Below, one piece after another: positions 2,919-17,408 of a stretch of 53,873 nucleotides of DNA. The position numbers and the translations under genes are program-made. Each line of letters begins with the position of its first letter. Positions within the stretch are counted from its first letter, which is position 1. The DNA comes from a virus, in the IMG/VR virus record IMGVR_UViG_3300033553_000840, positions 1 to 53,873 of that record; one strand, written 5' to 3'. The notes beneath the pieces are model-generated. The model saw only the letters and a program-made list of their open reading frames with translations. It did not search any database and was not told where the DNA came from.

Positions 2919-3623
2919 CTATCTGGCCACGGCCTGTTCTTCCTCTTCCACCAGTTTCTTGATAATGTACAGCTGGCCTGATCCGGTCACTCTGGTTGTT
3001 CGGTGGGTGAAGGTACCTTTTGATGTTTCCACAACGCCTTCTGTTACTTCAAAATATCCCCGTTCAATAAAGCGCTGATATGGTTCGGTCTTTCCTCTGA
3101 AGATCATGCCCCAGTCCCGTAGTTTCTGCCACAGTCGTTTTTCTCCAATTCTGATTCCGTCTTTGGAAGCCAACTTGGCTACTTCTCTCACCAGTAGGGT
3201 GTTTTCACTTGCGGCAATTTGCTTTTGGAACCTTTCTGCACTTTTAAGCTTTTGAGTCAGATTGTTGATGGTTCGGTCTGACATTTGAAGTGCTCTCGCC
3301 ATTACCATTTCCGGTGAATTCCATGCCTTTTCAACTTCAATAAAATATTGCCTGATTTCGTGGGATTTCGGTCCACCGGAGATCATACACAGATGTTTTG
3401 CAGCTTCCAGAGTGAGAACATAGTCTGTGCCTGGCCGTCCTCCGGTACTTTCCTCCAAAATTGGGGTAAAGTCATTCCCCTCGATGAACTCAATTTTTTC
3501 CACCTGGTATCTAAACCATGCTGAGAAATCTTTTCTGATGCCCAGTTTTTCATGCAATTCTTTTGCGCTCACCAGCTGCTCATTCTGCTCTTTGTCAAAA
3601 CTCACTTTGATCAGTTCGCCCAT
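2919..3623 (-). CDS. Antirepressor, AntA/AntB domain plus KilA-C
   Basis: 234 residues from the ATG after GGAAGGAG. The N-terminal part (VSAKELHEKLGIRKDFSAWF, LEESTGGRPGTDYVLTLEAAKH) is an AntA/AntB antirepressor domain. The C-terminal 110 residues (LLVREVAKLASKDGIRIGEK, LWQKLRDWGMIFRG, RTTRVTGSGQLYIIKKL) are a phage KilAC/ANT domain. Such proteins relieve CI repression or modulate early expression. Phage B has a partner with the same C-terminal type but a Rha N-terminus (53133-53873), a typical domain swap between related phages. Confidence 0.88.
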   Translation of the reverse strand: MGELIKVSFDKEQNEQLVSAKELHEKLGIRKDFSAWFRYQVEKIEFIEGNDFTPILEESTGGRPGTDYVLTLEAAKHLCMISGGPKSHEIRQYFIEVEKAWNSPEMVMARALQMSDRTINNLTQKLKSAERFQKQIAASENTLLVREVAKLASKDGIRIGEKRLWQKLRDWGMIFRGKTEPYQRFIERGYFEVTEGVVETSKGTFTHRTTRVTGSGQLYIIKKLVEEEEQAVAR

Positions 3624-5733: not shown

Positions 5734-5741
5734 TTTATTCT

Positions 5742-5769
5742 ATTATACATGTTCAATTTTTTCTGTCAA
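5742..5769 (-). promoter_or_regulatory. Leftward early promoter, sigma-A consensus
   Basis: On the minus strand TTGACA (5764-5769), 16-bp spacer, TATAAT (5742-5747): both hexamers are perfect matches. It would start transcription near 5735, upstream of the Cro-like gene, and drive the whole early operon of phage A. Confidence 0.8.
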
Positions 5770-5818
5770 TAGATTTTGTCTTAATTATGCGTTTTTTTAT
5801 ATCTTTTTTGTTTTATAT

Positions 5819-5836
5819 TATTGCATATGTGCAATA
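5819..5836. promoter_or_regulatory. Second palindrome upstream of CI
   Basis: TATTGCA TATG TGCAATA, perfect 7-bp arms, 36 bp before the CI start codon and just ahead of a TATAAT at 5839. It has no similarity to the AGTCGC operators, so it may be the autoregulatory CI site. Confidence 0.45.
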
Positions 5837-5871
5837 TATATAATATTCTAAAGATATTAGGAGGTGATAGT

Positions 5872-6513
5872 ATGGCTTCACTTGTAGCTCAACGCATAAA
5901 AGATAGAAGAAAAGAACTAGGTTATAGCGCAGAATATTTAGCCGATAAGCTTGGCATCAACAGATCAACTGTTTATAGGTATGAAGCTGGTGAAATTGAT
6001 AGTGTTGATGTACGTGTCGCGTACGAATATTCAAGAATTCTTGGAGTTTCAATAGGTTACCTTATGGGGTGGACTGATGATAAATATGATTATAAAGAAG
6101 ATCTTTCGCAGCCTAATTCTCATTTTAATGCAGTATGTATACCTTTACTCGGAACAATAGCAGCAGGGTTGCCTATACTAGCAGAAGAAAACATCGAAGA
6201 TCACTTTTACATAGATGCCCGGATGAAGGCTGATTTTGCATTGCGAATTAAAGGAGATAGCATGATTGATGCTGGTATCTTTGAAAATGACGTGGTGTTT
6301 CTGAAACGTCAAGATGATCTTGAGAATGGGCAGATTGGCGCTGTTCTTGTTGAGGATGAAGCCACTCTGAAAAAGTTTTACCGAGATGGCAGTACCATTG
6401 TGCTTCAGTCTGAAAATGACAAATACCGCCCAATCATCCTGACCAATGGCAATGTGCGCATACTGGGCAAGCTGGTGGCGGTATTGAATTTTAAGGACAC
6501 TACTATAATTTAG
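5872..6513 (+). CDS. CI-like repressor with LexA-type peptidase domain
   Basis: 213 residues from the ATG after AGGAGGTGAT. N-terminal XRE helix-turn-helix (RRKELGYSAEYLADKLGINR, STVYRYEAGE). The C-terminal S24 peptidase domain has the Ala-Gly cleavage site in GTIAAGLPIL, the catalytic serine in IKGDSMIDAG and the lysine in ATLKKF. RecA-stimulated self-cleavage would induce the prophage under DNA damage. First gene of the rightward lysogeny operon, divergent from the Cro-like gene. Confidence 0.92.
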   Translation: MASLVAQRIKDRRKELGYSAEYLADKLGINRSTVYRYEAGEIDSVDVRVAYEYSRILGVSIGYLMGWTDDKYDYKEDLSQPNSHFNAVCIPLLGTIAAGLPILAEENIEDHFYIDARMKADFALRIKGDSMIDAGIFENDVVFLKRQDDLENGQIGAVLVEDEATLKKFYRDGSTIVLQSENDKYRPIILTNGNVRILGKLVAVLNFKDTTII

Positions 6514-6524
6514 GGGGCGATCAT

Positions 6525-6995
6525 GTGACTGCTGATGAACTGTATTCTCAGATAAAGAACATGTTCAATGATATTGGATTGAAACTAGAACCTGGCGAAC
6601 TTTCTCTGAAGAAAAACGCCACTGACTATTCAATTAAGATCCTTAAAAATGTTGGATTTAAGATTAAGAAAGGCAACCGTGATCACTTTCTAATAAGAAA
6701 AATTCCAGGCTATAATCTTCCGGATAGATACAAGGTTGATTCATTGAAATCCTTTCCTTTGTACCATCGAGTCTGGCTTGTATTTGATGAAGATCTATCC
6801 GATTTAAAGAAATACCTCTTACAGATGTACATAAGTGCCCTTCCAGATGATGATGTATTTGGTTGCTGCAATGAATTTAAGGTGTGCAGTGATAATATGG
6901 CATGCTTGAAAAATCTAAAGTTCTCCGCCCGGTGTATGTATAAAGTTAATCTCGAAGCTGGCCGAATATTCTATGGAATTAATCGGAACATTTAG
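6525..6995 (+). CDS. Hypothetical protein downstream of CI
   Basis: 156 residues from a GTG start after AGGGGGCGAT, 11 bp after the CI stop. Begins TADELYSQIKNMFNDIGLKL; the middle has basic stretches (KIKKGNRDHFLIRK) and YHRVWLVFDEDL; two cysteine pairs lie near the C-terminus. I do not recognise a family; it is not an obvious ImmA peptidase since no HExxH is present. Probably cotranscribed with CI and expressed in the lysogen. Confidence 0.65.
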   Translation: MTADELYSQIKNMFNDIGLKLEPGELSLKKNATDYSIKILKNVGFKIKKGNRDHFLIRKIPGYNLPDRYKVDSLKSFPLYHRVWLVFDEDLSDLKKYLLQMYISALPDDDVFGCCNEFKVCSDNMACLKNLKFSARCMYKVNLEAGRIFYGINRNI

Positions 6996-7010
6996 CGGAG
7001 GTGAATCTTT

Positions 7011-7946
7011 ATGTCTTTGAATTTTGTGGCTCTTGATTTTGAAACTGCCAGTTATAGACGGAGAAACAGTGCTTGTTCCATTGGAATTGTTGTCCATTCG
7101 AATGGATCTGTTTATGAAAAGCATTCTCTGATTAGACCTGAACCATTGCGTTTTGATCCATTTAACATTGAACTGCACGGCATTACCCCAGACATGGTTA
7201 AAGATGCACCTACTTTTGGTGAATTATGGCCAGAATTCGAAATCTATCTGAAGAATAATATTGTTGTAGCTCATAATGCCGCTTTTGATTTTAGTGTTAT
7301 TCGGTATTCACTTGCTCAATATAAAATTGAATCCCCAATCATCAACTATTTTTGCACTTGTTCTCTTTCAAAAAGAGCACTTCCGGGGCTGATTAACTAT
7401 AAATTACCCACAGTAGCACATTCATTGAATATCAGTTGTAAACATCATGATGCGTTGGAAGATGCGCGCACTGCTGCAGGTATCATTAATAGTTTATTAC
7501 ATAAAAATAAAGTGGAATCTATTGAATCTCTCGCCGAGTTATATAAAATTTCGATCGGTCAAATTCACCCGGACGGCTACACTCCATGTAGTATGGCTCA
7601 GGCAATTAAGAGAAAAAAGAAATATATAAACTATTCTAAACTGATGCCTCATTCTAATGAAATTGATGAAGATAATTTTTTCTATAATAAAAACGTTGTA
7701 TTTACAGGAACCCTTAGTGGTTACACCAGGAAGGAAGCTGCACAAATAATTGTAGATATAGGCGGCACCGTCGGAAACACAGTTACATGTAATACTGATT
7801 ATCTTATTGTTGGCGAACAGGATTATTCGAGGTTTTCTGATGGTAAGATGAGTAGTAAAATGAAGAAGACTCTCGAGTTGTCACAAAATGGTAAAGATGT
7901 TCAAATCATAACTGAAAGTGATTTTATGGAGAATGTGTTGGCTTAA
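7011..7946 (+). CDS. DEDDh 3'-5' exonuclease with C-terminal BRCT domain
   Basis: 311 residues, ATG after GGAGGTGA. N-terminal DnaQ-like exonuclease: Exo I in FVALDFETAS, Exo II in VVAHNAAFDFSVI, Exo III in CKHHDALEDARTAA. The C-terminus (from about 220) is a BRCT domain: VVFTGTLSGYTRKEAAQII, VTCNTDYLIVGE. Such proteins resemble stand-alone DNA polymerase III epsilon homologues. In a prophage lysogeny operon next to two HEPN-type proteins, it is a candidate defence or DNA-end-sensing nuclease; that role is inference. Confidence 0.85.
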   Translation: MSLNFVALDFETASYRRRNSACSIGIVVHSNGSVYEKHSLIRPEPLRFDPFNIELHGITPDMVKDAPTFGELWPEFEIYLKNNIVVAHNAAFDFSVIRYSLAQYKIESPIINYFCTCSLSKRALPGLINYKLPTVAHSLNISCKHHDALEDARTAAGIINSLLHKNKVESIESLAELYKISIGQIHPDGYTPCSMAQAIKRKKKYINYSKLMPHSNEIDEDNFFYNKNVVFTGTLSGYTRKEAAQIIVDIGGTVGNTVTCNTDYLIVGEQDYSRFSDGKMSSKMKKTLELSQNGKDVQIITESDFMENVLA

Positions 7947-7967
7947 TTAGAAATAGGAGGTGCTATA

Positions 7968-8627
7968 TTGGAAGTCGACAAAGATACTAAATGGATTCAC
8001 TGCAATTCTTGTAATCGCTCAACAGAACATGTATTAGTTTCTGAGTATAGCCGAAACAAAGATCAAAACATCGGTGAAGATTATAATCCATTTATTATTA
8101 CTGAAACCTTTAGCTGGTTCGTATGGGAGTGCAATGGATGTAAAGTACTGACTGGAGAATCAAGCTATTCTTTCTCAGAAGATTATGATTGGCTGGGTAA
8201 TCCTGTAGAAGATATCAATTTTTATCCAGAGCGCAAAAAGGAGTATCATCCAGTAAAACAGTTTAATGAAATACCTGAAAAGCTTGAAGGATTGTACAAC
8301 GAAGTAGTTCTTGCCTATAATAATTCATGTGGAATATTGGCAGCAATTGGTCTTCGTTCACTGCTAGAAGGTATATGTGTTGATAAGGGTGTTACAGCAG
8401 ATAACATTCAGAAAAAAATTGATAAAATGAATTTTATTCCTGATAGTATTCGCAATAACCTTCATGCTTTTCGGTTTCTTGGTAATGACGCTGCCCATGA
8501 ACTTATTATTCCGGATAAAAAAGACCTCCAAATGGCTATTTTTGTAATCGAAGACATTCTTAATATTGTTTATGATCTTGATTACAAGAGTAAATTAATT
8601 TTTGATAAGTTCAATCGCAAGGCTTAA
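7968..8627 (+). CDS. DUF4145 (HEPN-like) protein with zinc finger
   Basis: 219 residues from a TTG start 7 nt after AGGAGG. An N-terminal treble-clef-like zinc site (HCNSCNRSTEH and WECNGCKVL) precedes an all-helical DUF4145 domain (SCGILAAIGLRSLLEGICVD, FLGNDAAHELIIPDKKDLQM). DUF4145 belongs to the HEPN-like superfamily and recurs in anti-phage and restriction contexts. Expected to act with the adjacent exonuclease (7011-7946), from which it is separated by 21 bp. Confidence 0.8.
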   Translation: MEVDKDTKWIHCNSCNRSTEHVLVSEYSRNKDQNIGEDYNPFIITETFSWFVWECNGCKVLTGESSYSFSEDYDWLGNPVEDINFYPERKKEYHPVKQFNEIPEKLEGLYNEVVLAYNNSCGILAAIGLRSLLEGICVDKGVTADNIQKKIDKMNFIPDSIRNNLHAFRFLGNDAAHELIIPDKKDLQMAIFVIEDILNIVYDLDYKSKLIFDKFNRKA

Positions 8628-8669
8628 ATAATTATTCATCAATAAGTAATAAGACAAAGGAGATGAAAT

Positions 8670-9050
8670 ATGATGATACAAGAGGAAATTAGGGTTATTG
8701 CTATACCCGATGAATACACTGTATATGTCAACAGCGGTTCTGAAAATAAACTACTTAAAAGAGGCCATATTCTTCTGATCGTAGAAATTGGAAAAGAGCT
8801 CTTTGATGTTGATGGAACTTCACTTGGAAATGCTATGCGATCAAAAGAAGAAGTTGAAGTCCTCCAGATCTATCCTAAATATTCCGTATGTAAAAAAAGA
8901 GAAAAAACTATCACATCATACGATAAGATACTATCAAATGCAGGAAAAACAACATATTCCAAATTGAATATAGGCAAATCAAATATTGTACCAATTTTTT
9001 CTGATAATGTTTCACCAGTTGAAGTTGGTGATTTGGTCATTATTAAGTAA
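8670..9050 (+). CDS. Beta-rich hypothetical protein
   Basis: 126 residues; tandem ATG codons at 8670 and 8673 behind AAAGGAGATG. Sequence alternates hydrophobic strands (EIRVIAIPDEYTVYVNSG, HILLIVEIGKELFDVDG) and ends VSPVEVGDLVIIK, reminiscent of small barrel domains. Not recognised. Last gene before the abiF RNA promoter, so probably the third member of the exonuclease/DUF4145 operon. Confidence 0.65.
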   Translation: MMIQEEIRVIAIPDEYTVYVNSGSENKLLKRGHILLIVEIGKELFDVDGTSLGNAMRSKEEVEVLQIYPKYSVCKKREKTITSYDKILSNAGKTTYSKLNIGKSNIVPIFSDNVSPVEVGDLVIIK

Positions 9051-9064
9051 TTTGTAAATTTTTG

Positions 9065-9093
9065 TTGAATATTGTTCACAAATAGGGTAATAT
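9065..9093 (+). promoter_or_regulatory. Promoter of the abiF-type RNA
   Basis: TTGAAT (9065-9070), 17-bp spacer, TAATAT (9088-9093), placed directly ahead of the structured RNA and 98 bp before the AbiF start codon. Each hexamer matches consensus at four of six positions. Confidence 0.5.
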
Positions 9094-9099
9094 ATAGGT

Positions 9100-9191
9100 A
9101 CAGGAGCTAGCAACTAAGGCTAGCCATTGGTCGGGCTTTATCGACTAGAGAGAGACCTCTATTACCCTTTCGGGTAAGGAGGTCTCTTTAT
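9100..9191 (+). ncRNA. abiF-type structured RNA
   Basis: Region between the promoter and the AbiF-like gene with several helices: GCTAGC-aactaag-GCTAGC, GTCG...CGAC, and a long closing hairpin AGAGACCTC...GAGGTCTCT containing TTACCC-TTTC-GGGTAA, followed by TTATTT. Weinberg and colleagues described an abiF RNA motif upstream of Abi_2 genes; position and architecture fit that class. The 3' arm of the last hairpin contains AAGGAGG (9176-9182), the Shine-Dalgarno of the downstream gene, so the RNA can both terminate transcription and hide the ribosome site. Confidence 0.7.
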
Positions 9192-10223
9192 TTGTCCCCA
9201 ATTTACGATAAACCATTTAAAACATTCCATGAACAAATAGCGCTGATGCAAAGCAGGGGCGTTATTGTCAATGAAAACTCCCGGACTTTTGAGATACTCA
9301 GCTCTATCTCTTATTTTTCGCTGATGAATGGTTACAAAAACACTTTTTTAAAGAGTCCAAACGATGATATTTTTATTGACGGAACAACGTTTGAGATGAT
9401 TTACCAAATATATCTTCTGGACTCCTCCATTGCCAGCATTCTACTCAAATACATTCTTATCGTAGAGCGCTCTTTAAAAACAAAAATTGCTTATCGTGTA
9501 TCCCAAGGTTATGACGTACATCATTCAAAATATTTGGATCCAAACAATTATTCTATAAGGCCTGCTCATAAACGTAAAAGGAATGAGCTGTTCAGTTATT
9601 TGTACAATTTTTGCACTAAACCGTACAGAAACACCATTTCTTATTATTATTGCAAAAATAAAAATCATGTGCCACCTTGGATTGTTGTCAATGACATTAC
9701 TTTTAACAAAACAATTGACTGGTATGAAATAATGAAAGCTGCTGACAAAACCTACATATGCCAAAATATGATTCCTTACGGAGATCCCAGTATTAATATA
9801 GCTGACAAAAAAGAATTTTTTATTAATGCACTGCATCTTCTTCATGCTTATCGTAATTCGATAGCGCATGGTAATAAAATTTTTTCTCCCCATATCCGTT
9901 CATTGTTGCCTAAGCGTCCGCTTTTCTTATTAGTCGATGATTCCAGCATTCTTTCAAAAAATGAATATAATGCTGGTTTGGGCCAGAAAGATTTATTTGC
10001 AGTATTTGTTTCGTTGATACTCTTAGTAAATAATATGGATTTAATACGTTCGTTTTTCTTGGACTTATCATATGTGCTAGATGATTACACTGATGAGATG
10101 ATTATGAACAGAACTTATTTTGAACTATTGGGACTTCCAAATGATATTATGGATAGACTGCTTCTTCTTTCCTCTAAAAAAGCTACTTTTTTGAATGACT
10201 ATCCATGTGAAGTAGATTTATAA
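9192..10223 (+). CDS. abiF: Abi_2 / AbiF-like abortive infection HEPN protein
   Basis: 343 residues from a TTG start, 9 nt after AAGGAGG. The opening (KPFKTFHEQIALMQSRGVIV then SISYFSLMNGY) is the Abi_2 (PF07751) signature. A HEPN RNase motif R-x4-H is at residues 221-226 (RNSIAH). Family members stop phage growth, probably by RNA cleavage, and are paired with a structured RNA as here. It is the penultimate gene of the lysogeny operon, between DUF4145/exonuclease cargo and the integrase. The ribosome site lies in the RNA hairpin, implying RNA-controlled expression. Confidence 0.85.
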   Translation: MSPIYDKPFKTFHEQIALMQSRGVIVNENSRTFEILSSISYFSLMNGYKNTFLKSPNDDIFIDGTTFEMIYQIYLLDSSIASILLKYILIVERSLKTKIAYRVSQGYDVHHSKYLDPNNYSIRPAHKRKRNELFSYLYNFCTKPYRNTISYYYCKNKNHVPPWIVVNDITFNKTIDWYEIMKAADKTYICQNMIPYGDPSINIADKKEFFINALHLLHAYRNSIAHGNKIFSPHIRSLLPKRPLFLLVDDSSILSKNEYNAGLGQKDLFAVFVSLILLVNNMDLIRSFFLDLSYVLDDYTDEMIMNRTYFELLGLPNDIMDRLLLLSSKKATFLNDYPCEVDL

Positions 10224-10265
10224 ACCTCTCGTTTAATTTTTTAAGTTGCAGAAAGGACGAATTTT

Positions 10266-12083
10266 ATGAACGCTGTAATCTATGCTCGATACAGTAGCGA
10301 TAACCAGCGGGAAGAATCCATCGATGCACAGGTGCGTGCAATTAAAAAGTATGCGCAGCATCATAGCATGAAAATCATCCATATTTACACCGATGAAGCC
10401 AAAACTGCCACCACGGACATGCGCCCAGGTTTTCAGCAGATGATGAAAGACGCTGAAGACGGGCGTTTTTCCGGTGTGCTTGTTCATAAGCTGGACCGCT
10501 TCGCAAGGAACCGGTATGATTCAGCATTCTATAAACGGCATCTTAAGGTCAATGGTGTTAAGGTGTACTCTGTGCTTGAGAACATTGATGACAGCCCTGA
10601 GAGTATCATTCTGGAAAGTCTGCTGGAAGGGATGGCGGAGTATTACAGCCTTAATTTGGCCAGGGAAGTAATGAAAGGGTTGAGTGAAACAGCCTATCAG
10701 TGTAAGCACACTGGTGGCACTCCTCCCCTTGGGTATGACATTGCACCTGATAAGACTTATGAGCTTAATCTTTTTGAGGCTGAGGCTGTGCGGATCATCT
10801 TCTCCATGTATCTGGAGGGCCATGGTTATGGTGCCATTATCGACAAACTGAATGAGCGTGGTCATAAAACCAAGCTTGGTCGGGCATTTGGGAAGAACAG
10901 CATTCATGACATTTTGAAGAATGAAAAGTATTCGGGGGTTTTTGTTTTCAATAAGACACAACGTAAGGTTGAGGGTAAGCGGAATGGTCATCTGCAGAAG
11001 CCTGACGAAGAAATCATCCGAGTTCCCGGAGGGTGTCCGGCTATTATCACGCCTGAAATGTTTGAAAGGGTGAAAAGAAAAATGGAAGAGAACAAGCATC
11101 GTACAGGGCAGTACAAATCTAAGCGGGTTTATATTCTTTCCGGATTAGTCTTGTGTGGCAAGTGCGGATCGGCCATGGTTGGTAAGCATGCGCGTTCCGG
11201 CAGGAATAAAACTGATTACTCTTATTATGAATGCAACGCAAGGCGCAATAAGCGCACCTGTGATGCGAAACCTATCAGTAAACCCTTCGTGGAAGACCTG
11301 GTGATTGATTTTCTTTATGATAATCTTTTTTCTGATGATGCCATTGGCCCGGCCAGCGATAAGATTTATGAAGATATTCAGAAGTCTTCTCAGCAAGTTC
11401 CGGATGAAGTTAAACAATTTCAGGACCAGCTGAAGGATGCTGATGCAAAAGTTGAGAGTATGCTTCAGTCTGTCATGGATGGAATGTATCACCCGTCAAT
11501 GAAAATTAAGATGAAAGAGTTGGAAGAAAAACAGATTGCCTTGCAGCGAAGGCTGGATGAGGCGGCCAAGATTGACCGGAACCTTTCTTTTACACGGGAC
11601 CAGATTTATCATTTTCTTTCCTTGTATCAGGACATTAAGAACTTCTCTGATCTAAAAAAGAAAAATGCTGTCAATCTGTTTGTTGATAATATTATTGTAA
11701 ATGAAGATGATGTGCATTTGTCGGTGGTTACGCGGCCAGACGCTAAGGGACCGCTCAAAAAAGCAAGAACTACCGGCGAGGACACCGGTAGTTGGGATTT
11801 GTTGGTGGAGACGACCCTTCACCCACAGAGGTACAAAATAGCATACATCTTCACTTGCGGCTTGTTGTGCCGATTGTTTTTTATCGTCACTCTATCGCAT
11901 CTGTATAGTTTTTTATTAGGCTCCCTGTATGGGGGCCTTTTTTTTGCGCAAAAAAATAAAGCCACCCCGAAGGGTGGCGGTGGCCAGGCAGTGAAAGGAG
12001 TAACACTTCTGGCCCTGGCTGGCTATTTAGGGTTCTGCAGCTTTCTTTTCTCTTTTCTCCCGTGCCTTTGTAATTTCTTCTAG
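10266..12083 (+). CDS. int: Large serine recombinase (integrase), C-terminus altered at attachment site
   Basis: 605 codons, ATG after AGAAAGGACG. Resolvase domain with catalytic Ser10 (IYARYSSDNQREES) and RFARNR; Recombinase domain (GGTPPLGYDI, LGRAFGKNSIHDILKNEKYS); zinc ribbon (LCGKCGSAM ... YYECNARR); coiled coil around 380-460. The recognisable family ends near residue 505. The remaining 100 codons are hydrophobic and unrelated (IAYIFTCGLLCRLFFIVTL) and run across an intrinsic terminator at 11918-11945 without a stop. The likely cause is that attP lies in the 3' end of the gene and integration replaced its stop codon. Ends the rightward operon of phage A. Confidence 0.9.
   Translation: MNAVIYARYSSDNQREESIDAQVRAIKKYAQHHSMKIIHIYTDEAKTATTDMRPGFQQMMKDAEDGRFSGVLVHKLDRFARNRYDSAFYKRHLKVNGVKVYSVLENIDDSPESIILESLLEGMAEYYSLNLAREVMKGLSETAYQCKHTGGTPPLGYDIAPDKTYELNLFEAEAVRIIFSMYLEGHGYGAIIDKLNERGHKTKLGRAFGKNSIHDILKNEKYSGVFVFNKTQRKVEGKRNGHLQKPDEEIIRVPGGCPAIITPEMFERVKRKMEENKHRTGQYKSKRVYILSGLVLCGKCGSAMVGKHARSGRNKTDYSYYECNARRNKRTCDAKPISKPFVEDLVIDFLYDNLFSDDAIGPASDKIYEDIQKSSQQVPDEVKQFQDQLKDADAKVESMLQSVMDGMYHPSMKIKMKELEEKQIALQRRLDEAAKIDRNLSFTRDQIYHFLSLYQDIKNFSDLKKKNAVNLFVDNIIVNEDDVHLSVVTRPDAKGPLKKARTTGEDTGSWDLLVETTLHPQRYKIAYIFTCGLLCRLFFIVTLSHLYSFLLGSLYGGLFFAQKNKATPKGGGGQAVKGVTLLALAGYLGFCSFLFSFLPCLCNFF
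11918..11945 (+). terminator. Intrinsic terminator after the integrase
   Basis: AGGCTCCC, loop TGTAT, GGGGGCCT, then seven T. An 8-bp stem with one G-U pair. It ends rightward transcription but lies inside the open integrase frame, so the transcript would have no stop codon. Confidence 0.8.
11946..11978 (-). terminator. Intrinsic terminator of the phage B late operon
   Basis: On the minus strand GCCACCC TTCG GGGTGGC (11961-11978) followed by TTTATTTTTTT. A 7-bp stem with a UUCG tetraloop. It lies 49 bp downstream of the holin gene stop and marks the end of phage B late transcription. Confidence 0.85.
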
Positions 12084-13989: not shown

Positions 13990-14270
13990 TATACTTCACC
14001 TCCTGTTGGTTGTCCTAGCATGGTGTCAATCACTTCTTGCAGGCGCTGGTTTTCCTGTTCCAGGGCATTTATGCGTTGTTCTTGTTGTAGTTTTTGCCAT
14101 TCCTCTTTGGTGTACTGAGTTTCGTCGTAGGTGTACCAGGTGGATTCATTTTCCTGGTCGTCAGTTCTGGTTTCTTCTTGAATGTTTTCTCTTGCATAAA
14201 CGGTTGTCGGGCTTGTGGTTTCGTCAACTGGCAATGGCTGTTCTGTGCTTTCGGAGCGGTATGTTTTCAT
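13989..14270 (-). CDS. Tail accessory protein with C-terminal coiled coil
   Basis: 93 residues; start lies inside the 3' end of the reverse transcriptase gene (47-bp overlap) with GAGGGGAG upstream. Low-complexity acidic N-terminus (STEQPLPVDETTSPTTVYAR), aromatic centre (WYTYDETQYTKEEW) and coiled coil (INALEQENQRLQEVIDTML). Similar small proteins follow tail fibre genes in Firmicutes phages. It is not like the four-helix Avd accessory protein of DGRs, although its position would allow it. Confidence 0.55.
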   Translation of the reverse strand: MKTYRSESTEQPLPVDETTSPTTVYARENIQEETRTDDQENESTWYTYDETQYTKEEWQKLQQEQRINALEQENQRLQEVIDTMLGQPTGGEV

Positions 14271-15321
14271 TTCGACTAATCTCCCCTCTTGAATATTGTC
14301 TTATAATGGCTTTCATGGCTTTGATCGACACATAAGGCACTACTCTTGTTTTAAATACCTTGTACGTCTGTGAGTGTTTTATCCATCCCAGATAACTGAT
14401 AATTGCGGCCGCATCTTTGAATGTGGCTTTTCCTTTGTTGTAGATGCGCTTTGCTTTACGTGTGATGCGCAACATCAGGCTTTTTCTTAATATTGTTTTG
14501 TGCCTGAAAAACCTGAATCCCATAAAATCCAGCGCTCTTGCATCTAGCTTAAATACCTGCCAGTTTTTCTTGATTTTGAGGTTCATTTTTTCCAGGTACC
14601 CCATGATCATGCGCACGGCTTTGTGTAGTTTTCTTTTGTTGGGCCCAAACAGAATCATATCGTCCATATACCTCATGTAGTACTTTATTTTCAGCACTTG
14701 TTTTATGAGGTGGTCCAGCTTTTGCAAAATGAAATTAGCCAGCCATTGGCTTGTTAAATATCCGATTGGCAGGCCTTTTGGGTAGCTGTCTATGATGGTG
14801 TCCAGGAGCCACAACATTTTAGGGTCTTTGATGATGGTTCTGATACTGGCCTTGGCCAGGGTGTGCGTAACTGATTCATAAAATTTTGTGATGTCTAATT
14901 TTGCACTGTATTTAGTGTTTTTCCTGTCTTTTCTGATCCACTTTTCAAGTTTTGGTTTTCCAAAATGCGGTCCTCTGCCCGGCATGCTTCCGCAGGAGTA
15001 GGCATATGCACCTTTTTCTATAACTGGCTGTAATTGTAGTACCAGTGCCCAGTGTATGATTTGGTCTGGATAAAAATCGATTTTTGTAACTTTCCGCTGT
15101 TTCTGTCCCGCTCCTTCTCTAATAAAGGATTCCTTGTATGGGCATGGTTTGTATGTGCCGGTGACCAGCATTTTATGAATTTGGTATGCGTGTTTTTCAA
15201 CGTCTGCCAATACTTCCTGGACTTCTTTTCTATCTTTCTTGTCTTCAGCTGCTCGGTAAATTGCAGCTGTTATGTTTTGCATTGATATTGTTCTTTCAAA
15301 TATGTGTTTTTCCGTCTTCAT
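14224..15321 (-). CDS. DGR reverse transcriptase
   Basis: 365 residues, ATG after AAAGGACATCGTGG. Retroviral-type RT fold with palm motifs: LDITKFYESV (142-151, first catalytic Asp), GLPIGYLTSQ (183-192, the DGR variant of the RT motif with SQ) and YMDD (218-221). The C-terminus has the basic thumb region (ALDFMGFRFFRHKT...). It makes error-prone cDNA from the TR RNA, miscopying adenines, and the cDNA replaces VR in the tail gene. Gene order VR, TR, RT on one strand matches known DGRs. No Avd gene lies between VR and RT. Confidence 0.93.
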   Translation of the reverse strand: MKTEKHIFERTISMQNITAAIYRAAEDKKDRKEVQEVLADVEKHAYQIHKMLVTGTYKPCPYKESFIREGAGQKQRKVTKIDFYPDQIIHWALVLQLQPVIEKGAYAYSCGSMPGRGPHFGKPKLEKWIRKDRKNTKYSAKLDITKFYESVTHTLAKASIRTIIKDPKMLWLLDTIIDSYPKGLPIGYLTSQWLANFILQKLDHLIKQVLKIKYYMRYMDDMILFGPNKRKLHKAVRMIMGYLEKMNLKIKKNWQVFKLDARALDFMGFRFFRHKTILRKSLMLRITRKAKRIYNKGKATFKDAAAIISYLGWIKHSQTYKVFKTRVVPYVSIKAMKAIIRQYSRGEISRNENIPLRKHRTAIAS

Positions 15322-15330
15322 CCACGATGT

Positions 15331-15471
15331 CCTTTCTTATGGCCTATGGGTGGTTCGAATTCGCATGAACCTACTTGACCCATCCAGTTTCGGCTTAATT
15401 TTTACCTAGGGGTAAGGAATATGGCACACCATCGTTCGAGATGATTTTTGTTACTTTTCCATAAGAATGGA
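15331..15471 (-). other. DGR RNA spacer closed by TR/RBS inverted repeat
   Basis: On the minus-strand RNA the bases directly after TR (TTCTTATGG, 15467-15459) are the perfect complement of CCATAAGAA (15342-15334), just ahead of the RT start. Across one A-A mismatch the pairing continues: TCC at the TR end (15471-15469) with GGA (15333 side, 15332-15330), the core of the RT Shine-Dalgarno. The 116-nt spacer is thus a closed domain. A 14-nt copy of TR (15353-15366) lies within it. Confidence 0.6.
15353..15366. repeat. 14-bp copy of a TR segment in the spacer
   Basis: GTTCGAATTCGCAT is identical to 15487-15500 inside the TR. It contains the self-complementary CGAATTCG, so the RNA copies in TR and spacer can pair with each other. 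Confidence 0.75.
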
Positions 15472-15665: not shown

Positions 15666-17408
15666 TTAACTGGTCTTCTCAAGGAAGGAGAGCGACGCGC
15701 CAAAGTTCGAAGTCGCAAGGGAGAGCGGATTGGACACCGTCACCGTGCCGGCCCCGCAAAGAGAGCCATAGCCACGAGCGCCACTGACAAGCGCCCACTT
15801 TATAGTGCCTCCAACTGCGTACCAAAGTCCGCATGTATAGTACGTTGTTGCTGATGCACCGTTTGTGTCCGGGATGAATCCTAAATCTTCAACGATTTTT
15901 GCATCACGCAGATACCCGCCTGATCCGCCTGTTGGAAATACGCCGGTAGGTGTGTAGCCGGCGGGCATTACATTTTCGTCTGGTGTCGCTGGTTGCAGGT
16001 ATGGCGGTGTTTTTCTGACGTGTATTTCTCCATTCAGTGCCAGGAGCATGCCGCTCATTCTTTCCCAGTAGTTACCCCAGTAGTTTTCGATGTAGAACAC
16101 TTTTACCGCCTGGGTTGTAGTGCTGTAACCGTGGAATTGGCCTTTTCCTTTCAGGGCTCCTGGTGCTATGTAAACACCTGAATCGCTGTTCCCGTTTCCA
16201 AATGTCAATTGATCTGCTGTTGTTTTGCCTATGAGCCATAGCAGGTAAGTGATGTAGTCTCGTTGCGATTTGTAACCTATATGCCATCCAATCCCGTTTT
16301 CTTCCGCTCTTTCGATTTCTATTTGTCCTGTTTGACTGGCCATGACCGCACCCGTTGCCAGTGACCGAAGACGTGGCGCTACATACGATCCGTCAAACAT
16401 TGCTTTGTACATGTAATCCTGTATGTTTCCATTTTCGTCAGTAAATGCATGGGCGTGGTAGCTTGAATCGTACTGCACGTTTGAAAAAACAATATACTCA
16501 TGTGTTGCGTCTTCCCATTCTTTTATCCATAACCGTTTGAACTGGCTCATTGCATTTCCTGCAAAGGCTGTGCTTCCGATGTCCGAGGCTGTTCCGTCGG
16601 CTTTTTTTGTTTGATCGTTTCGGTCTAGTCGGTAGGCGACGGTACCATCGTAGTTTAGCATGACGGGGGTGTTTATCCATTCGCAGAAGCCTCTCCATGA
16701 TCCGTAATTAAATTCGTCTGCTGAATAGTTCATGCCGGCCGGGATCATGCCTACAGCGTCGTATAGGTATTCCACCCGTGTAAAGGGGTTCGAGTCGTTT
16801 TTGTCGATTTTTATGCCGTATCGGAATGTGCCAGGTGTGCCGGCGCTGATAATGCCATTTTCGTCAATAGTGATGGTGTTTCCGTCTACTTTTACGTGGC
16901 CTAGGGCTGCGTCTGTTGCTTTATCGTTTTTGTGCACATTAAAATCTTGTTGCGTTACATATATTCCCGATTCCACTGTTATGCTTACATTTTCCGCTTC
17001 CCCAATTGTTGTCGTAATATTGTGTATCGATTCAATCACTGTTGATCCTTGATCTGCAGGTAAGTAGTCTGCAAATGCCCCAGCATTTGTATAGCAATAT
17101 AGTATTTCTCCTTCGTCTGGGTCATTTGCAAATATGCCAATTTCTCTCACAAAAAATCCCTCTGCAAGATCTTCATTTGTTACATATATTCTTATTCTTA
17201 CTGTTCCATCTCCAATCACTGACATATCTCCTATGTCCAGTGTTTTTTTCTCACTTATGAGCACGTTCAAATCTTTTATTTCCTGTTCTGGTTCCAGTGT
17301 TCCGTCACCTATGCCAGATCTAGTGAACTGCAGTTGTGTTCCTATTTGGGCTTTTGCCTGTAATGCTAATCCCTTATTTGTTAGTTGAATGTTCGGAAAA
17401 TCCGCCAA
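15666..17408 (-). CDS. DGR-diversified tail (receptor-binding) protein
   Basis: 580 residues. The N-terminus (NIQLTNKGLALQAKAQIGTQ, LQFTRSGIGDG) is the phage tail-collar/fibre attachment type found downstream of gpI. The C-terminus from about 480 has the DGR target pattern: GGSGGYLRDAKIVEDLGFIP, TTYYTCGLWYAVGG and the variable segment ALVSGARGYGSLCGAG to ASLSF, expected to form a C-type lectin fold. VR covers the last codons to 10 before the stop. The protein probably sits at the tail tip or fibre end and binds the host surface, with ligand contacts diversified by the DGR. Confidence 0.9.
   Translation of the reverse strand: MADFPNIQLTNKGLALQAKAQIGTQLQFTRSGIGDGTLEPEQEIKDLNVLISEKKTLDIGDMSVIGDGTVRIRIYVTNEDLAEGFFVREIGIFANDPDEGEILYCYTNAGAFADYLPADQGSTVIESIHNITTTIGEAENVSITVESGIYVTQQDFNVHKNDKATDAALGHVKVDGNTITIDENGIISAGTPGTFRYGIKIDKNDSNPFTRVEYLYDAVGMIPAGMNYSADEFNYGSWRGFCEWINTPVMLNYDGTVAYRLDRNDQTKKADGTASDIGSTAFAGNAMSQFKRLWIKEWEDATHEYIVFSNVQYDSSYHAHAFTDENGNIQDYMYKAMFDGSYVAPRLRSLATGAVMASQTGQIEIERAEENGIGWHIGYKSQRDYITYLLWLIGKTTADQLTFGNGNSDSGVYIAPGALKGKGQFHGYSTTTQAVKVFYIENYWGNYWERMSGMLLALNGEIHVRKTPPYLQPATPDENVMPAGYTPTGVFPTGGSGGYLRDAKIVEDLGFIPDTNGASATTYYTCGLWYAVGGTIKWALVSGARGYGSLCGAGTVTVSNPLSLATSNFGASLSFLEKTS
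15687..15794 (-). repeat. DGR variable repeat (VR)
   Basis: Last part of the tail gene, aligned without gaps to TR (+218). Differences: 12 at TR adenines and two adjacent ones (15737, 15738) at a T and a C. Changed codons, TR to VR: AAT-GCT, AAC-GGC, AAT-TAT, AATCTG-ACGGTG, AAC-TCC, AAT-CTT, AAT-ACT, ATT-TTT. Replaced residues are spread over the predicted ligand surface, which shows that the cassette has been active. Confidence 0.92.

Follow-up and report, generated by a model that had tools for sequence, protein, structure and literature searches.

In a viral unit of the AbiF type, consisting of an RNA and a toxin gene, the -10 region of the promoter was found to be complementary to the terminator-like hairpin that buries the ribosome site of the toxin, and this complementarity is almost certainly under selection, as judged by comparison of related loci. 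The unit occupies positions 9065-10223 (plus strand, as are all its features) of the 53,873-nucleotide IMG/VR record IMGVR_UViG_3300033553_000840, the whole of which is hereafter called the window. The arm in the promoter (AGGGTAATA, 9084-9092, hereafter P) overlaps the -10 hexamer and is a perfect 9-nt complement of 9160-9168 (TATTACCCT, hereafter X), which lies in the 5′ arm and loop of the hairpin. The reading preferred here, held with middling confidence, is that of a prophage AbiF-type RNA and toxin unit with an origin-of-transcription switch, in which P would be the arm of a cis-acting antiterminator. This suggests that no toxin is made unless transcription enters from the neighbouring gene, hereafter the partner gene. 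How the toxic HEPN nuclease of AbiF stays off or is turned on is what is at stake in this unit. If the -10 does serve as a base-pairing arm, one compact unit would give antitoxin from its own promoter or toxin from read-in transcription, and on this model the unit should sense when the adjoining prophage gene is transcribed. In the library searched, no paper was found that pairs 'AbiF' with 'antitermination' or that describes a promoter doubling as an antiterminator.

The window protein on its own, scanned against viral and genome contigs, returned nothing, and an alignment query was needed to find relatives. Three of 167 loci were not placed, and 39 of the 164 placed were excluded (two as too short), leaving 125 non-redundant AbiF loci for comparison, near-copies having been removed by shared 10-mers. 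The idea of a P:X pairing first arose from a side-by-side view of relatives, and was assessed as the best ungapped complementarity of the -10 region to the RNA, within the same locus versus other loci. The score over all 69 loci was 6.81 for own RNAs versus 5.50 for others (z 9.8). For the 13 loci of the discovery clade, whose cut (>160 bits) was set after looking, it was 9.38 versus 6.01 (z 7.4, p 2e-5), and the signal peaked on the -10 and was lost by -24 and +24. The other 56 loci also gave a signal, a weaker one (6.21 versus 5.55, z 4.5), so P:X is not entirely limited to the clade. The validation cut (at least 150 bits) was fixed before new loci were scored. With the same code, 14 fresh loci above this cut, from genome and viral contigs, gave 10.07 versus 6.57 (z 7.1, p 2e-5), and 42 fresh AbiF loci below 150 bits gave no signal (5.26 versus 5.17, z 0.6). 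Pairing extended beyond the anchor in a fixed-register comparison of 14 loci, a subgroup picked after the register had been seen, with an anchor chosen blind to the flanks and with two wrongly anchored loci (L002 and L064) kept. Here 6.0 of 8 flanking positions paired versus 4.6 (z 5.1), with changes on both sides at most positions, including A-T/G-C/C-G swaps.

The larger set of 30 clade loci comprised the 13 discovery loci, 13 of the 14 validation loci, and L099, L100, L102 and L103, which were added after the validation result. P was complementary to the terminator region in this set (z 11.1). By part, the complementarity was confined to the 5′ arm and loop (z 11.1; loop with one neighbour per side, z 4.9) and was absent from the 3′ arm (z -3.4), and controls gave no signal for P against the motif hairpin (z -0.5), P against AbiF coding sequence (z -1.9) or the upstream gene end against the RNA (z 0.3). 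That P merely resembles the 3′ arm was rejected, the same-sense similarity (z 2.6) being far weaker than the complementarity. P:X lengths and registers vary between loci. For the window the per-locus p was 0.016, and an independent repeat search of 9060-9200 listed two inverted repeats, one of them 9084-9092 with 9160-9168 (9/9 paired). P and X pair free of bulges, whereas X can pair with the 3′ arm of its hairpin only if an A is bulged out. L087 stands outside the 30-locus set, the acidic N-terminal extension of its AbiF shifting the RNA further upstream; its hairpin still contains a Shine-Dalgarno (SD) sequence, and its -10 region too is complementary. In a quick tree, 16 of 18 P:X loci fell under one 32-locus fork holding the window (Shimodaira-Hasegawa-like approximate likelihood ratio test 91, below the starred level), L037 and L057 falling outside it. 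With a strict P:X label (p<=0.03), the tree required 14 changes versus 17.0 in shuffles, 3 of 500 being as low; this clustering is not clean, and P:X is patchy even within the clade. L057, from Streptococcus pneumoniae phage IPP16, has a distant AbiF with no partner gene, a 12-nt P:X and GGGGGAG in the hairpin before a TTG start, and is apparently a separate origin of the same layout.

The promoter consists of a -35 hexamer TTGAAT (9065-9070), 14 nt past the stop codon of the partner gene and kept in position and spacing in relatives, and a -10 hexamer TAATAT (9088-9093) after a 17-nt spacer, where the homologue L002 has TATAAT. From the promoter position, the AbiF-associated RNA or 5′ leader (9101-9191) would start about 7 nt past the -10. 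A preliminary description made from the letters alone had placed a promoter and a multi-helix RNA before the gene, and this was borne out: the fold of 9095-9200, at -46.4 kcal/mol (z -4.7; none of 200 shuffles was equally low), has three hairpins. Hairpin 1 (9104-9125) was shared, among 14 aligned RNAs, by just two, those of the window and of its 70% homologue L060 (the same as L002). Hairpin 2 (9127-9148) is the conserved clade motif, with the consensus AAUGGUCG..loop..UGACUAGCGA and three pairs changed on both sides across the 14 RNAs. The terminator-like hairpin (9150-9188) has 17 pairs, with a single A bulging from its 5′ arm, folds alone at -25.5 kcal/mol, and is followed, as the description had also said, by a T-rich tail (TTTATTTG, 9187-9194). 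A simple terminator scan does not list this hairpin because of the bulged A, and the lack of any terminator-like site in a scan of 5734-10400 is weak evidence, the abiF hairpin itself having been overlooked for its bulge. A leader peptide was rejected: an ATG in the motif is open and in frame with abiF in only 5 of 18 loci (L002, L085, L163, L068 and L035), about as expected by chance.

The label 'abiF RNA' in the preliminary description did not hold in the Rfam sense. The abiF model RF03085 matched nowhere in the window at the gathering score, nor in 8900-9500 up to E=10, and the hairpin motif differs; in 20 loci, only the positive control phiC2 matched (37.6 bits) and the 19 others did not. 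The unit is classed here as an AbiF unit with an RNA of a class other than Rfam abiF. The layout is that of type III-like pairs, with an RNA gene ahead of the toxin, co-directional, and a predicted terminator (with one bulge) between them. The tandem RNA repeats of such pairs were not seen, there being no direct repeats in 9060-9200; phiC2 does show one.

The SD sequence of the toxin, a perfect AAGGAGG at 9176-9182, lies in the 3′ arm of the terminator-like hairpin, 9 nt before the TTG start at 9192, and folding of the RNA gives it a mean P(unpaired) of 0.04, in agreement with the earlier placement of this site inside the last hairpin. SDs were scored among the 125 loci if exact, at least 5 nt long and at most 18 nt from the start, which covered 86 loci and left 39 without a clear SD unscored. 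Mean P(unpaired) was 0.05 in the 22 loci with at least 140 bits to the window protein (counted as clade, with one non-clade locus, L101, among them) versus 0.41 in the remaining 64 loci scored (Mann-Whitney 4e-10). Non-ATG starts were found in 12 of these 22 loci versus 7 of the 64.

The toxin gene (9192-10223) encodes 343 amino acids from its TTG start. Its product is, by sequence match, an Abi_2/AbiF HEPN protein with predicted RNase toxicity: the Pfam Abi_2 domain scored 123.3 bits against a cut-off of 25.6, PHROG gave an abortive infection match of 246.9 bits, and PADLOC named the protein AbiD (143.1 bits). The catalytic motif RNSIAH (9852-9869, residues 221-226), already noted in the preliminary description together with the Abi_2 assignment, has the R-x4-H form, and residues R221, N222, A225 and H226 are unchanged across 13 relatives. 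A profile from 13 relatives matched PbAbiF (PDB 8VZ6) with E 3.8e-13; PbAbiF and its RNA PbAbiFr are reportedly the subject of Zilberzwige-Tal et al. 2025. The description had also proposed that the RNA acts at once as attenuator, ribosome switch and partner RNA of the HEPN protein. The parts of that interpretation that stood are the AbiF/AbiD HEPN protein, the leading RNA, the terminator-like hairpin and the buried ribosome site, all kept in relatives, and the Rfam label fell. It overlooked the complementarity between promoter and hairpin as well as the partner gene, both of which alter the likely mechanism.

The partner gene (8670-9050, plus strand) runs into the promoter. It encodes 126 amino acids and belongs to phrog_27728, function unassigned (PHROG E 2e-6). 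The protein is weakly FlgT_C-like, and its AlphaFold2 model is a beta-barrel (predicted local distance difference test 87) whose best PDB match in Foldseek was the flagellar LPHT ring (E 2.7e-4, template modelling score 0.50), followed by FlgT (4e-3, 0.48). One family of about 130 amino acids lies ahead of the promoter in 30 of 32 loci examined. Of the 30 partner-bearing loci, 29 have the stop codon at -4 to +14 nt relative to the -35, and 13 have a TGA stop inside the -35 hexamer. A profile, built from 30 of the 34 loci concerned, placed the partner upstream of AbiF in 34 of the 125 loci compared; all 34 fall to a single side of the AbiF tree. P:X at p<=0.05 was found in 20 of the 34 loci with the partner versus 5 of the 91 without (Fisher 5e-10). 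That the partner is a general phage gene was rejected, AbiF adjoining it in 5 of 6 phage records (phage iA2 accounting for two of the five) and the sixth, Funu1, lacking this neighbour. The family occurs in 3 of 391 class genomes, with AbiF in two and none in G438. The partner gene goes unmentioned in the available parts of the AbiF papers cited here. Family members with no listed AbiF directly behind lie at 2495-2977 of L168 (Fusobacterium phage Funu1) and 1501-1869 of L172. In the L060 prophage, group I introns at 724-965 and 3064-3335 (73.7 and 69.8 bits) flank the unit of partner and abiF, one of them directly after abiF.

In the preferred reading, the local promoter would start the RNA just downstream of P and so give a transcript without P. 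This RNA would fold the motif hairpin and the terminator, whose 3′ arm is the toxin ribosome site, and transcription would mostly stop there. The terminated RNA would keep AbiF inactive as an antitoxin, an action on the window's HEPN protein that is plausible by homology to PbAbiFr and to RCd22 of Clostridioides difficile. Transcripts entering from the partner gene would carry P, which would capture the 5′ arm and loop of the terminator upon their emergence, delaying the terminator and leaving the ribosome site partly uncovered; toxin mRNA would arise only from such read-in transcription. As in an attenuator, X is common to P:X and the terminator, making the two structures mutually exclusive. 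In predicted folds of read-in transcripts ending at X, P pairs with X at a probability of 0.41-1.00 in all 30 loci. When folding was followed on a growing chain, the own P delayed the terminator by 5.3 nt on average versus 2.0 with a swapped P, and 29 of the 30 loci had a longer delay with their own P than the mean for swapped P (Wilcoxon 2e-6).

Several observations weigh against this reading. At equilibrium the full-length read-in transcript still forms the terminator (mean SD P(unpaired) 0.055 versus 0.052), and the switch must therefore be kinetic or factor-assisted. Classical attenuators work kinetically, and the partner protein is a candidate for a helping factor. The lower terminator stem could also form alongside P:X, as a pseudoknot beyond the folding program. 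The window promoter (TTGAAT-17-TAATAT) is weak, matching 8 of 12 consensus positions and falling under the promoter-scan threshold. In the nearest homologue, L002, Watson-Crick P:X is weak (score 6, p 0.31) and relies on G-U pairs. P:X at p<=0.05 occurs without the partner gene in L046, L048, L054, L057 and L023, and is not unique to the clade. Finally, in 10 clade loci the purine run of the arm sits too far from the start for an SD of at least 5 nt to fall inside 18 nt, and it is less certain there that the arm serves as SD.

Part of this evidence would suit a plain AbiF RNA antitoxin unit, in which a strong terminator hairpin does the work, the buried ribosome site is a second lock and P:X has no cis role. 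This is an unlikely account, if the most serious of the alternatives. Both transcripts fold mainly into the terminator at equilibrium, and the C. difficile AbiF operates in this way (PMC12373285, in the part available, as for the other accessions cited); a plain unit nonetheless leaves unexplained why co-varying P:X is limited to the -10 and the 5′ arm and loop. An improbable alternative is action in trans, by which the terminator loop and 5′ arm of the antitoxin RNA would pair with P in toxin mRNA arising by read-in, so as to block that mRNA or flag it for cleavage. Such action would be in keeping with the loop complementarity given above and with the excess in which local RNA is expected. 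The same partner is, however, present in cis at far higher local concentration, and no separate target was found, P and X each occurring once in the window.

Less credible again is a leader of the AbiD1 kind, responding as a thermosensor or to a phage protein, with P:X incidental. AbiD1 of Lactococcus lactis resembles the window's unit in its short terminated leader transcript, its structured, sequestered ribosome site and its read-through toxin, and is activated by phage Orf1 and cold (PMC2661086). Its ribosome site, however, follows the terminator in a separate weak stem (PMC2661086), and P:X would be left unexplained. It is very doubtful that P and X act at the DNA level, either as half-sites of an operator for a repressor or as mirrored promoters, the hairpin then holding an antisense one. 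The -10, which P overlaps, is a usual place for an operator, but P is single-copy in the window and P:X lengths and registers differ between loci. A repeated operator was rejected on the single occurrence of P and of X. An antisense promoter in X was likewise rejected, the minus strand having no -35 signal above background (2.4 versus 2.55); the mirrored -10 has T as its sixth base in 15 of 30 loci. Least probable of all is a naturally RNA-guided AbiF-RNA complex, with the terminator loop and 5′ arm as the guide against transcripts crossing its own -10 and silencing read-in toxin mRNA in trans, which, if true, would make it a self-targeting forerunner of the guiding of Cas13, of which AbiF is a proposed ancestor.

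Set beside known systems, the window's unit is a variant of the AbiF pair of RNA and toxin, apparently one with an origin-of-transcription switch. IS10/IS50 transposase mRNA also folds according to whether it starts internally or upstream; there read-in transcripts hide the ribosome site, whereas those of the window are predicted to expose it. In C. difficile, a terminator is combined with an antitoxin RNA and toxin mRNA arises by read-through, RCd22 repressing both by premature termination and by binding the AbiF protein (PMC12373285). Like the window, the AbiF-RCd22 pair of prophage phi027/phiC2 has a prophage Abi_2/HEPN toxin, with promoter, non-coding RNA, terminator and toxin in one transcript (PMC12373285). 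Unlike the window, it has two tandem abiF motifs, and its ribosome site stands apart, past the terminator (PMC12373285); RF03085 scored one match in phiC2. The window has another motif in single copy, its ribosome site within the terminator and a partner gene ahead, and its protein is about 25% identical to C. difficile AbiF. In PbAbiF-PbAbiFr, a homologous HEPN toxin is likewise held by a non-coding RNA, and pairing between promoter and terminator goes unmentioned in the available parts of the two reports (PMC12737573, PMC12373285). AbiD1 differs in having its sequestering stem apart from the terminator and in its activation by phage Orf1 and by cold (PMC2661086).

The unit lies in a co-directional run of genes comprising a repressor, an exonuclease-like gene, a DUF4145 gene, the 126-amino-acid partner gene, abiF and a serine recombinase. 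The exonuclease-like gene (7011-7946) encodes an RNase_T exonuclease fused to BRCT, with PADLOC similarity to PDC-S48. Between it and the partner gene, 7968-8627 encodes the DUF4145 protein, with weak PADLOC similarity to PD-T7-4 (E 5.9e-7). Elsewhere in the window, an Rfam RT-18 RNA (15333-15414, minus strand, 60.8 bits) stands just ahead of an open reading frame of 365 amino acids (14224-15321, minus strand), which we take to be reverse-transcriptase-like, and close to 15666-17408 (minus strand), presumably a tail-fibre-like gene.
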